Virus record (IMG/VR): IMGVR_UViG_3300033153_005126 | Coordinates: 1-41,129 of that record | Origin: a virus | Direction: 5' to 3' (one strand) | Length of the DNA: 41,129 nucleotides | Shown here: piece after piece, positions 1,675 to 34,639 of the stretch | Layout of the letters: each line of letters opens with the position of its first letter | How positions within the stretch are numbered: the first letter of the stretch is position 1 | Program-made: the position numbers and the translations under genes | Notes under the pieces: model-generated | What the model was told of the DNA's origin: nothing | What the model saw: the letters and a program-made list of their open reading frames with translations, nothing else | Databases searched by the model: none

Positions 1675-2151
1675 ATGTCAGATAATAATAGAAAGGTAGA
1701 GCTTGAGAGATGCCCGTTTTGTGGTGGTGAGGCGAAGGGGCAATCATACAATGGCGATCACTGGATCAATTGTGAATGCCAAGAGATGCAACCAACGAAG
1801 GAAGAGGCTATCGAAGCATGGAACACCCGAACCAAGCCAAGCCCAATAGAAAACAACACAAACATAAACCTACTAGAAAACTTTGTTGATAAATGTATAA
1901 CCGACAAATGCCTCAATTTAGAGGACGCTGAAGAGGTGTTGGGACAGATTGAGGGACGAGTTGCCGATGTCAGCAAAACATCAGATAAGGCTATTTCGGA
2001 GGCGCTGGGGGAGGTTGGCAAGGAGTTAAATATTTTAGAAACTTTGAGTGATTTAAAACGTGTATCTTACCCTAGAAAAGTCCTAGTCGGAAAATTAACC
2101 AAGATTCAAAACATACTGGAACAAAACAATAAAGGAGTAAACGTTGAGTAA
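1675..2151 (+). CDS. Protein with N-terminal Lar-type (restriction alleviation) zinc motif
   Basis: 158 residues. Residues 10-52 match the Lar family pattern: CPFCGGEA (C13, C16), a later C-x-C pair (C33, C35), then EEAIEAWNTR. Lar proteins of Rac-type prophages reduce host type I restriction by modulating modification, but many phage proteins carry only the zinc motif. The remaining 100 residues are helical with a Thr/Asn-rich linker, longer than the usual short Lar. Start ATG 1675. Anti-restriction activity is inferred from the motif only. Confidence 0.75.
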   Translation: MSDNNRKVELERCPFCGGEAKGQSYNGDHWINCECQEMQPTKEEAIEAWNTRTKPSPIENNTNINLLENFVDKCITDKCLNLEDAEEVLGQIEGRVADVSKTSDKAISEALGEVGKELNILETLSDLKRVSYPRKVLVGKLTKIQNILEQNNKGVNVE

Positions 2152-2344
2152 AAACAAGATAATAACGGATAGTGATGAGCGTTACACAATAACCCCTCTA
2201 ATTGACCCATTAATGATGTGTGGTTTTGATAACGGAAACATTACATTATCCAATGGGAAACAGGTATTGAATCTCAAGAAAGAGGATTTGCCGAGAATAA
2301 TTGAGTTGTGTGCAATTAAGTTGCAACAAGTGGAGGGGATTTGA
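2144..2344 (+). CDS. Small protein of unknown function, TTG start
   Basis: 66 residues beginning at TTG 2144. AAAGGAG at 2131-2137 lies 6 bases upstream, which decides this rare start. It overlaps the previous gene by 8 bases. The sequence begins with the same start-Ser-Lys pattern as neighbours (start-AGT-AAA). Predicted beta strands in the first half and one C-terminal helix; no recognisable family. Confidence 0.65.
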   Translation: MSKNKIITDSDERYTITPLIDPLMMCGFDNGNITLSNGKQVLNLKKEDLPRIIELCAIKLQQVEGI

Positions 2345-6215: not shown

Positions 6216-7793
6216 GTGATTATTTCTGAGACATTAGTAATTGGACCACAACCTGGAATGCAAACTGAGTTTCTAAAGTCCTCCGAAACGGAGGTTTTTT
6301 ATGGGGGAGAGGCTGGCGGAGGTAAATCCGCTGCCCTCCTCATTGATGCTCTTTATCAGGTCCCAATAGCCGGGTATAAGGCTGTAATATTCAGAAGAAC
6401 CTATCCCGATTTAGAAGACTTAATCCATAAAGCAAGAGAATGGTATTTACCAACAGGCGCTAAGTTCAATGAATCAAAGCACTTGTTCACATGGTCAAAC
6501 GGCTCACAAATCAAATTCTCACACATGCAACATCTTAAAGACATGTATTCTCATATGGGTAAAGAGTACGACTATATTGCATTTGACGAGCTTACCCACT
6601 TCCCAAAGATTATGTATGTGTATCTATTCTCAAGACTGAGAGGGGCGAATCCAGACATTAAGAGAATGATTCGAGGTACTGGGAACCCTGATGGCGAGGG
6701 CTTACTTTGGGTTAAGAACAGATTCTTCGACCCTATGAATCCACTGGAACGGGGCTATTTTAAAACCGTAATGGATAAAGATGTAAGGGTCACGAAAGAC
6801 ACGAAAGGCTGTGTTTCTCGTAAATTCATCCCATGTATAAGAGCTGAGAATAGAATACTTATGGACGCTGACCCAGAGTATGAGAATAGACTTGATCAGT
6901 TGCCAGAAGATAAGAAAAGGGCGCTAAAGCAAGGGCTTTGGACAACTCTTGATAAGCCAGACCAACTTGTTCATGGTCAATGGTGGGAAGATGCACTTAA
7001 TGGTAAAAATAAGTTTGTAGACAATGGTAAATATACTATTGGAGCCGATTATGGTACATATCAGGGTGTTGATAGATCGGTTGAGTTCCTTGGGGTTGGT
7101 AATCGACCATATAGATGTAAGAACTGGTCAAAGACTAAAACGAACCAATTTGCCAAGATTTTAGCAGAAACAGCCAATAGTGTAGATAAGAATAATGTTC
7201 GTATCGGTGTTGACTCAATTGGTCCCGGTACTGGCGTTGCGGATGATTTAGAAGAACATCACAGCATGTCATATATTCTCGAGAGATGCACCCACAAAGA
7301 CCCATTATTTGATGCAAAGTATCTGGGAGAGATTAAGTTCGATAACCTTAGATCACAAATGTGGTGGAATCTTAAGACGGACTTTGAGAAGGGCAATATT
7401 GATATGTCAGCCTTCCTTGATAAGCCGCTTACTTCAGATGGTGAGATTGACGAGAGAACCGAGCAGGGCTATTTTGACGAATTCAATAGACTCCAAGAGG
7501 AGATTCTAGCTCATACGTATAAAATCGTTAATGGTAAACTCATTGTTATCTCAAAAGAAGAGTTGAGGAAGCCTGAGAAGCTTGGTAGATCGCCCGACTT
7601 TGCCGACGCCCTTGTTATTTGGAACTGGACTCGTAGACACCATTACATCAGAGAAGTTCAGCCAGACGATCGCGGGGCAACAGATGGGTACATGAAGGCA
7701 ATGCATAAGAAAGAGAATGAGATTGAAGATGATGCCACTTATTTTCAATCAGAATATACACAGGATGAAGGAGATTATTCAGATGATTACTAA
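6216..7793 (+). CDS. terL: Terminase large subunit
   Basis: 525 residues. ATPase domain: Walker A GGEAGGGKS (30-38), Walker B YIAFDE with D124-E125, and coupling motif RGTGNPDG (153-160). Nuclease domain: D278 in GADYGT, D333 in GVDSIG, and D461/D464 in SPDFADAL, the usual acidic triad of terminase nucleases. It packages DNA into the procapsid through the portal. GTG 6216 is chosen because the conserved PxPGxQ..FL segment preceding Walker A begins at residue 10. A 12-codon frame starting at ATG 6191 overlaps this start and could be a leader. Full length for the family. Confidence 0.95.
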   Translation: MIISETLVIGPQPGMQTEFLKSSETEVFYGGEAGGGKSAALLIDALYQVPIAGYKAVIFRRTYPDLEDLIHKAREWYLPTGAKFNESKHLFTWSNGSQIKFSHMQHLKDMYSHMGKEYDYIAFDELTHFPKIMYVYLFSRLRGANPDIKRMIRGTGNPDGEGLLWVKNRFFDPMNPLERGYFKTVMDKDVRVTKDTKGCVSRKFIPCIRAENRILMDADPEYENRLDQLPEDKKRALKQGLWTTLDKPDQLVHGQWWEDALNGKNKFVDNGKYTIGADYGTYQGVDRSVEFLGVGNRPYRCKNWSKTKTNQFAKILAETANSVDKNNVRIGVDSIGPGTGVADDLEEHHSMSYILERCTHKDPLFDAKYLGEIKFDNLRSQMWWNLKTDFEKGNIDMSAFLDKPLTSDGEIDERTEQGYFDEFNRLQEEILAHTYKIVNGKLIVISKEELRKPEKLGRSPDFADALVIWNWTRRHHYIREVQPDDRGATDGYMKAMHKKENEIEDDATYFQSEYTQDEGDYSDDY

Positions 7794-28654: not shown

Positions 28655-29518
28655 TTATTCTCCAATTATTTTTGTAATATCGTCAACCTGAAAGCCAGCT
28701 GCACCTTTGTGACCGCCGCCCCCCATTGTCTTTGCTATTTCTGAACAATCTATTTCGTCTTTTGTAGAATAAAGAGATATGGTCCATTTTTTACCGTTAA
28801 ACTGAAAAGGCATCATAACATCATGCTTAGATTCATCATACACAGAACCAAATACAAGGCTATTAAATCCACCGCCATTAAGGCAAATACATTTAAGCCC
28901 ATTCCACTCTATTTCAAATGAAGCTTTGCGACATTGTAATTCATTTTGCTCTTTCTGATAGGAAATAATTAATTCTCCATTTTCAGTGACCGCCTCAACA
29001 AACGAAATATCCCAAAATAACTCTTGCGGGAAATTCTTTGGCGAATTACATATTAATCTCATGCCATATTGAAATGGCATAACTTTATTTTCCCAATATT
29101 CAAGATTATCATTTCTCCAAGAGTCATAAGTGCCGAGTAATCTTATGCTTTCTGGAAGTCTATCATTTGGGAAAAGCTCTCCCCATGTTAGTTCACATGC
29201 TGATATTGTGGAATTTAAAACAGCTCTAAAATTTATAGCCACTACGTTTGGAGCGAAAAACTCATCACAAGCCTTGATAGCTGAAATATGATGATCTATC
29301 CAAGTTAAATCACATTTATTTGCAATATGATACATTTTTTCCATTGGAAAAGATATGTCGGACATTATTACTTTTGCCCCATCCGGCAAGTCTGGTATTG
29401 GATTACCATAATCCCACCCAATCAATTTAGCATTTGGGTATTTCTTTTTAATTATTGCTCCGCTTGAATATCCGTCAAGATCGGCGCTATGATATATTCC
29501 TATTACTTTTTGTTCCAT
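28655..29518 (-). CDS. DHH-family phosphoesterase
   Basis: 287 residues. N-terminal domain: HSADLDGYSSGAI (10-22), MSDIS (52-56) and the DHH motif at 75-77 (WIDHH). The C-terminal DHHA1-like domain ends with GGGGHKGAAGF near residue 270. These are the metal-binding and phosphate-binding elements of RecJ/NrnA/pAp-phosphatase enzymes. Without a RecJ-size C-terminus, it is closer in size to oligoribonuclease or cyclic dinucleotide/nucleotide phosphodiesterases. Last gene of the leftward operon. Substrate unknown; it could recycle RNA or DNA ends or degrade signalling nucleotides. Confidence 0.85.
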   Translation of the reverse strand: MEQKVIGIYHSADLDGYSSGAIIKKKYPNAKLIGWDYGNPIPDLPDGAKVIMSDISFPMEKMYHIANKCDLTWIDHHISAIKACDEFFAPNVVAINFRAVLNSTISACELTWGELFPNDRLPESIRLLGTYDSWRNDNLEYWENKVMPFQYGMRLICNSPKNFPQELFWDISFVEAVTENGELIISYQKEQNELQCRKASFEIEWNGLKCICLNGGGFNSLVFGSVYDESKHDVMMPFQFNGKKWTISLYSTKDEIDCSEIAKTMGGGGHKGAAGFQVDDITKIIGE

Positions 29519-33963: not shown

Positions 33964-33996
33964 ATTATAAGTATGAAACAAAACAAAAGAGATGTT

Positions 33997-34218
33997 ATGA
34001 ATAAGAAAGAATGTTTAATAAGACTATCGGGAGAGGTTCAAGTGGCTGTCTTTAAACTATTATGGAAAAAGAAAATAATGAGGTCTAGAGACATTATAAA
34101 AGAGTTGAAAATTATAAGTGGAACCATCAGCAAAGCCTTAAAGTCTCTTATTGAGAAAGGGTTTGTTGAGAAGGTGGCTTGTGGGTTATACAAAATTTCA
34201 GATAACGTAACTAAATAA
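33997..34218 (+). CDS. Small winged-helix DNA-binding protein
   Basis: 73 residues from ATG 33997 (an upstream ATG at 33973 in frame is an alternative). VQVAVFKLLWKKKIMRSRDIIKELKI, ISGTISKALKSLIEKGFVEKV and GLYKIS are the helix-turn-helix and wing of a MarR/ArsR-like fold. It sits between divergent early promoters, the place of an early switch or repressor, and directly before the tRNA-like RNA. Binding site unknown. Confidence 0.65.
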   Translation: MNKKECLIRLSGEVQVAVFKLLWKKKIMRSRDIIKELKIISGTISKALKSLIEKGFVEKVACGLYKISDNVTK

Positions 34219-34223
34219 TGAGT

Positions 34224-34383
34224 TTGCACTGTGGCGGAATAGAGACGCTAGCACCGACATTGACTTCACAGCACATCCTAAGTGATCGGCGACACCATAG
34301 GAGTCAACCTAGTAAATAAACCCTTGTCGGAGTTTTAGGAATAACTTGGCGGTTATTGTGGGTATCGAATCCCACCAGTGCAA
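34224..34383 (+). ncRNA. tRNA-like RNA with enlarged anticodon domain
   Basis: TTGCACTG (34224-34231) pairs with CAGTGCAA (34376-34383) as an acceptor-like stem. GTGGCGGAAT..AGACGC (34231-34248) resembles a leucine-type D arm. AATAAC/GTTATT (34340-34357) resembles a long variable arm. GTGGG-TATCGAAT-CCCAC (34358-34375) is a T arm with an 8-base loop, one more than normal. Where the anticodon arm should be lies a 77-base domain, CCGACATTGACT (34254-34265) pairing with AGTCAA (34302-34307) and TGTCGG (34325-34330). No CCA is encoded. It is not a normal tRNA; a decayed tRNA-Leu, or a new tRNA-like RNA. Confidence 0.55.
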
Positions 34384-34411: not shown

Positions 34412-34639
34412 ATGAGCAAGCGTAAATCACAAGATAAACGGATATTAGATTTCATCATAGAACACGGCTCAATCACAAGATACAAAGCCGTGTTCGATCT
34501 CGGGATTTTTGAATTGGCAGCAAGAATCCGAAAACTTGAAACCGATGGTCACAGATTCATTAAGCTCCCAAGGTCAACGGTAGATAGGTTTGGCGGTACT
34601 GTTTATTTTAAAGAATATAAATTAGAGGCTGCAAAATGA
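34412..34639 (+). CDS. Helix-turn-helix protein
   Basis: 75 residues; GAGGAAAGA precedes ATG 34412. RILDFIIEHGSITRYKAVFDLGIFELAARIRKLETDGHRF is a HTH/wing pattern close to those of phage HTH domain proteins used for early control. Overlaps the next gene by ATGA. Regulator by fold only. Confidence 0.6.
   Translation: MSKRKSQDKRILDFIIEHGSITRYKAVFDLGIFELAARIRKLETDGHRFIKLPRSTVDRFGGTVYFKEYKLEAAK

Follow-up and report, generated by a model that had tools for sequence, protein, structure and literature searches.

Within the window analysed here, a 41,129-base virus record from IMG/VR that encodes a P22-like portal, a terminase, RecT and YqaJ, positions 34224-34383 carry a tRNA-like RNA that is well supported, by sequence comparison, as one member of a large and mostly unannotated phage RNA family. 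Its structural identity as an RNA with a tRNA body can be assigned with high confidence. For its role we favor, at a probability of about 0.5, the reading that it is a non-decoding tRNA mimic with a body derived from tRNA-Leu and a cassette in place of the anticodon domain, which would act in trans in the manner proposed below.

A tRNA body with an insert in place of the anticodon arm

The arms of the element and the two genes that flank it are laid out as follows.

34224-34383, plus strand: whole tRNA-like RNA (34225-34382 plus an eighth closing pair, 34224:34383)
34225-34231, plus strand: acceptor 5' strand TGCACTG, 7 of 7 pairs with 34376-34382; the acceptor covaries among relatives
34232-34248, plus strand: U8 and D arm TGGCGGAATAGAGACGC; the string recurs in unrelated phages and the D stem covaries
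34249-34357, plus strand: insert (cassette) of 109 nt replacing the anticodon arm and variable region; in relatives free in length and sequence, with syntenic exchange
34254-34330, plus strand: nested insert domain CCGACATTGACT...AGTCAA...TGTCGG, predicted from the fold and inverted repeats of this sequence alone
34340-34357, plus strand: variable-arm-like hairpin AATAAC-TTGGCG-GTTATT, from the fold and inverted repeats
34358-34375, plus strand: T arm GTGGG-TATCGAAT-CCCAC with an 8-nt loop; T-arm strings occur in relatives
34376-34382, plus strand: acceptor 3' strand CAGTGCA, CCA not encoded
33973-34218, plus strand: upstream gene, 81-aa winged-helix protein (TrmB/MarR-like), with 6 nt between the end of its stop codon and the acceptor
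34412-34639, plus strand: downstream gene, 75-aa winged-helix protein (HTH_39, PF14090)

An inverted-repeat search recovered eight-base acceptor strands, TTGCACTG and CAGTGCAA, paired at 8 of 8 positions (34224-34231 with 34376-34383). U8 is at 34232, the D stem GCG/CGC joins 34234-34236 (G10-C11-G12) to 34246-34248, and A14 and A15 stand at 34238-34239. Where a tRNA has an anticodon arm of 5 bp with a 7-nt loop, the window has the 109-nt insert, in which an outer helix CCGACA/TGTCGG (34254-34259 with 34325-34330) and an inner helix TTGACT/AGTCAA (34260-34265 with 34302-34307) are predicted, followed by the variable-type arm with strands AATAAC/GTTATT (34340-34345 with 34352-34357). The final insert base, T34357, occupies position 48, which is also T in the relatives found through the D arm, and the sequence 3' of the acceptor is ATTAATTT, without CCA. 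The features shared with canonical tRNAs are thus a 7-bp acceptor stacked on a 5-bp T stem, U8 and A14, and the element further resembles class II tRNA-Leu in its D-arm type, A15-U48 and variable-type arm; it differs from tRNA-Leu in the missing anticodon arm, the shortened D loop, the 8-nt T loop and the unencoded CCA.

Together with the comparisons below, these observations bear out what a sequence-only reading of the stretch had described, namely a tRNA-like RNA with a tRNA-Leu-like D arm, an extra base in the T loop and no encoded CCA, lying between a winged-helix regulator and an HTH gene. The 77-base domain that it placed at the anticodon position agrees with the nested CCGACA...TGTCGG domain, and falls short of the whole stretch from D arm to T arm.

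The minimum-energy fold of the element includes the acceptor, D, variable-type and T arms as well as the insert helices. The folding energy is not significant (z of -1.42 for the element and -0.16 for its insert alone), so the single sequence could not prove the structure; comparison does. For the nested insert no relative was found, and its helices are therefore predicted from one sequence.

Standard tools return nothing at this site. ARAGORN called no tRNA or tmRNA at 34224-34383, Rfam gave nothing relevant there at gathering cut-offs or at E values up to 10, and the tRNA covariance model RF00005 did not match the element even at an E value of 10. BLAST searches of phages and plasmids with this region gave nothing relevant, and neither BLAST nor a RecT-based search found close relatives of the window phage. 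We found no description of the family in the literature searched, which took in few subscription papers or preprints. Elsewhere in the window, a 287-aa ORF on the minus strand (28655-29518) has a borderline match to DHHA1 (25.6 bits, cut-off 25.9).

Relatives in many phages share a covarying body

The D-arm string TGGCGGAATNGAGACGC matched 41 viral stretches and, with one more base, 30 cellular stretches. About 28 viral and about 6 cellular loci of this kind show an acceptor (7 bp, differing in sequence) and a T arm (5 bp) where a tRNA body would have them; the cellular ones come from 257 Gb of cellular genomes, and one of them lies beside a phage tail gene and another is identical to a viral contig. 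This set has T at position 48, though the scan did not require a T there, which fits the A15-U48 core pair that needs it. In viral contigs the T-arm string TGCAGGWATCRAAYCCTGC had at least 120 matches, and each of two other T-arm strings had 18; in most of the T-arm-string matches listed, a complementary acceptor strand stands upstream and is succeeded by TGGCGGAA or a related string. The recurrence of the same D-arm string with an acceptor and a T arm in dozens of unrelated phages argues that the window element is real.

Run over 1.82 Mb of fetched sequence, a strict finder that demands at least 6 of 7 acceptor pairs returned 108 unique matches; three shuffles yielded 0, 1 and 1, and this contrast is independent of that demand. 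Most of the matched loci had been drawn in by one of two arm strings, the remaining arms being free. The window element is itself among the matches, and follows the family pattern of acceptor, TGGCGGAA-type D arm, insert, U48 and T arm. In an alignment of 56 bodies, 97.5% of the cells in the three helices are standard pairs, and two-sided changes in these helices number 195, compared with 45 in shuffles and 27-45 in slid controls. Compensatory changes, whose absence had been named beforehand as counter-evidence along with loss of the arms, are thus frequent across the family, and the arms are retained. In all, more than 100 distinct phage loci carry the same tRNA-type body.

Some members with a 7-nt T loop and a length of about 120 nt are matched by the Rfam tRNA model (35.4, 31.0 and 29.7 bits in the records of L016, L201 and L202; cut-off 29 bits), and in the D-arm-seeded set a GG in the D loop tends to accompany the 7-nt T loop, with exceptions. 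The commonest T-arm string was found in 0 of 395 Bacteroidota genomes, which hold too few bases to establish strict phage specificity.

Inserts are exchanged between syntenic copies

As far as the D arm, the near-identical contigs L018 and L093 share 97.7% identity (4,051 bp), and from the T arm onward they share 99.0% (614 bp), with 96% identity in the body; their inserts (72 and 97 nt) align at 45% identity, against 47% for shuffled sequence. Likewise, L076 and L031 are 99.7% identical over 694 bp from the T arm onward and have unrelated inserts, and eleven loci with a common upstream 136-aa gene and an AGCAAGG body carry three unrelated inserts. One insert type (AAAAAACTGTAATGAGG...) sits in bodies with the acceptors AGCAAGG, TGCAAGG, AGTCAGG and GGTCAGG; the T loop of these bodies is 7 or 8 nt long, and the genes upstream of them differ. 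The hairpins of this insert type show two-sided changes (TGAGG/CCTCA to TGTGG/CCACA, and CGCA/TGCG to CGCG/CGCG), and this internal covariation indicates that inserts can be conserved structured domains. Judged from these comparisons, the inserts of the family are swapped as cassettes while the tRNA body stays, and exchange between syntenic copies makes the conserved D and T arms the borders of exchange.

About 40-80 nt upstream of the RNA in L018 and L093 we also observed a hairpin, ACACG-TAGAAAT-CGTGT, that changes to the compensated CATTG-TAGAAAG-CAATG, and another structured RNA may adjoin the element in these contigs.

The anticodon position

Inserts range from about 12 to 195 nt across the family, and the shortest members measure about 62-77 nt. 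At the anticodon place these have hairpins such as CCATCG-TA-CGATGTGG, CCGTA-(6-nt loop)-TACGG, CCTCC-GGGAT-GGAGG and CCAG-TC-GCC-AAGA-GGC-TT-CTGG, with loops that are mostly not 7 nt; a few can be drawn with a 7-nt loop, with an inconsistent anticodon. No convincing anticodon arm is present in the members inspected, and for want of a normal one the class cannot, as a class, read codons.

A tRNA-Leu gene that contains an intron or has decayed would account for the tRNA-Leu-like D arm and for extra sequence at the usual place of an intron, but we regard this explanation as very improbable: anticodon-arm exons would be conserved, whereas the insert ends are unrelated between syntenic copies, the hairpin loops of the shortest members are mostly of the wrong size, no group I intron match was found in the window, and decay is excluded by the covariation and breadth of the family. 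Of the three readings offered from the sequence alone, a decayed tRNA is therefore refuted by conservation and covariation in more than 100 phage loci; a tRNA carrying an insertion stands as a description of the anatomy and fails as an intron or accident, both because the insert ends are unconserved in syntenic copies and because the shortest relatives also have no normal anticodon arm; and a tRNA mimic is the best of the three.

Among 96 distinct inserts, no shared k-mer rose above dinucleotide shuffles; CATAA, enriched in 38 inserts, was rejected as a shared motif since it was not enriched against such shuffles in the 96. The inserts are weakly more structured than flanking DNA (z of -0.58 vs -0.21). 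Their free choice would suit a tRNA-scaffolded small regulatory RNA, whose cassette would base-pair with specific phage or host mRNAs, and a precedent is found in tRNAOther of B. cereus, which is described as a tRNA-like element not working in translation, inside a larger regulatory RNA (PMC3399842). That element is a cellular pseudo-tRNA beside a genomic island, and the abstract mentions no exchangeable insert (PMC3399842). We judge a regulatory RNA unlikely, as no long antisense match of an insert to its own locus was found and exact matches on either strand beat 30 shuffles in 2 of 96 inserts where 3 were expected, a count that covers the insert's own locus and has pairing of 7-9 nt or with host mRNAs outside its scope.

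RNA ends

Two features of tRNA genes recur at the ends of family members: a T at position -1 (63 of 121, against a background of 31%; p 1e-6) and an NCCA encoded after the acceptor (10 of 121; p 2e-5). A73 is found in 9 of the 10 members with an encoded CCA, and across the family base 73 is A in 44, T in 37, C in 30 and G in 10. Outward pairing of -1 with 73 occurs in 66 of 102, above the 43 expected by chance, and the acceptor reaches 12 bp in the TGCTATG group. Mature tRNAs do not end in this way, so neither charging nor a free 73-CCA end can be a general property of the family, and by the pairing of their ends many members lack a normal tRNA 3' end.

The ends also bear on the notion of a leucine-accepting mimic, which LeuRS would charge and which would be used, or kept sequestered, in a capacity other than decoding. 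E. coli LeuRS is known to dispense with the anticodon, which we counted in its favor together with the tRNA-Leu-type D arm, with A14 and A15-U48, and the A73 of most CCA-encoding members. Given that base 73 is variable over the family and often paired, that most members have no encoded CCA and that some acceptors are extended, such a mimic seems highly doubtful.

Genomic context

No recurring neighbor gene family was found beside the family loci, which makes a role in trans, as for tRNAs, more natural than one in cis. A canonical tRNA match is missing in about half of 37 phage records, so the family is not tied to tRNA arrays. We rejected the CCA enzyme as a general companion, since it was present in just 2 of the virus records searched and in one cellular genome.

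The E. coli phage phAPEC8 contains a complete, unannotated 76-nt member in the gap between tRNA-Asn and tRNA-Thr (L203:2453-2528; about 60020-60095 in NC_020079), and dozens of phAPEC8-related records have the T-arm string in an unannotated stretch. Also in the phAPEC8 tRNA array is an unannotated tRNA-like stretch with CACAA-TTTA-TTGTG at the anticodon position and a canonical T arm (L203:3427-3497), and L203:1960-2053 holds a gene resembling tRNA-Ser(UGA) in which the D arm is odd and GCCA is encoded; this gene is unannotated and not called by ARAGORN. Pairs of member copies occur within one phage; in L190, two copies with an identical insert lie about 5.5 kb apart (1027-1133 and 6498-6604) and differ in one T-stem base. 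In a related phage contig (L002), ARAGORN gave a starred tmRNA of the permuted type with the tag GNVLQMNRPQVRLAA downstream of a family member (1832-2203, minus strand). Between the two, at about 2175-2285 on the minus strand, is a third tRNA-like stretch with the acceptor GGAGCAG/CTGCTCC, a T-arm-like GTGGCGTTCGATTCCCAC, a long middle domain and no Leu-type D arm.

A cis-acting role as processing punctuation, in which the element would serve just to bring in RNase P and RNase Z for cleavage of a polycistronic mRNA between genes and the insert would be filler, draws on the location of the window element 6 nt past a stop codon between co-oriented small genes, and on gene orientation at 95 loci, where 73 upstream genes and 68 downstream genes share the strand of the element. 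We nevertheless consider it quite unlikely: phage genomes are compact and yet retain inserts of up to 195 nt, the conservation of one insert type, with covariation inside it, extends over different bodies and contexts, copies come in pairs in single phages, members lie inside tRNA arrays and the neighboring gene is not conserved.

Comparison with known RNAs

In tmRNA, as in the element, a long domain stands in place of the anticodon arm of a tRNA body. Identity with tmRNA was rejected: besides the negative ARAGORN and Rfam searches at the site, the third acceptor pair in the window is C3-G70 instead of G3-U70, a normal D stem is present, and the inserts of the shortest family members (12-27 nt) are too small for a tag frame. 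YrlA, which does not decode, resembles a tRNA in its D, T and acceptor arms (PMC8394870). Its two ends form a long Rsr-binding stem, whereas those of the window element form the acceptor. We also rejected identity with YrlA or another bacterial Y RNA, as the YrlA model RF02553 has no match in the window and a TROVE (Rsr) gene is present in 0 of 14 phage records including the window, a count outside which the hosts' own Rsr falls. Non-decoding tRNA mimics are already known as a kind, and the cassette principle has a fair chance of being new.

Within phages, a parallel in arm order is T4 species 1 RNA (rnaC), which lies in the T4 tRNA cluster and is annotated as a 'small, stable RNA'. Like the family, it has a T arm (CCGGG-TTCGAAT-CCCGG), a 10-bp variable-type arm and the same arm order in its 3' half, with a large domain where the D and anticodon arms would be. 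The acceptor, CGATTCG/CGTTTCG, is our own reading and contains two U-U mismatches. Unlike the window element, species 1 has no GGCGGAA-type D arm and its T loop is 7 nt; the likeness is one of arm order, and homology would be a conjecture.

Proposed mechanism

The tRNA elbow is recognised by RNase P, RNase Z, the CCA enzyme and LeuRS (PMC4810234). Because processing enzymes recognise the elbow and the acceptor/T stack, a body such as that of the family should be excised and stable. We propose that the RNA would be cut from an early polycistronic transcript at its acceptor ends by host tRNA-processing enzymes, with RNase P cutting the 5' end and RNase Z or exonucleases the 3' end, sometimes with CCA; these enzymes would read the elbow and the 12-bp acceptor/T stack, would need no anticodon, and would leave a stable small RNA. 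Processing of this tRNA-like kind is, on the strength of the body's architecture, probable.

More tentatively, the non-decoding mimic would act in trans, its tRNA body docking on, or competing for, a host factor that recognises the elbow, and the fast-changing cassette would set specificity. The cassette's most likely target would be a defence or toxin directed at tRNA, or some other tRNA-binding protein of the host. Since the cassette is exchanged and the body kept, the body may address the RNA to a common partner, a host tRNA-binding factor, and the cassette may supply the specificity that changes; such a pattern of exchange is as expected of a factor engaged in a conflict, be it with the host or with rival phages. 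For a decoy or anti-defence role the one line of evidence is this exchange pattern, and such a role is possible, at less than even odds.

Implications

These findings point to a large class of phage RNA, for the most part unannotated, which standard tRNA and RNA-family searches miss and which easily grown coliphages carry. A broader and rather unlikely generalisation is that phages of many hosts share one RNA platform, with a constant tRNA body and a rapidly exchanged specificity cassette in place of the anticodon domain, of which T4 species 1 RNA would be an unrecognised historical example. If true, the platform would be an RNA counterpart of swappable anti-defence genes, and by joining an exchangeable domain to an unchanging tRNA body, phages would have a new route to the tRNA-binding machinery of the host. 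The old question of the role of the T4 stable RNAs thereby gains a comparative and testable form.
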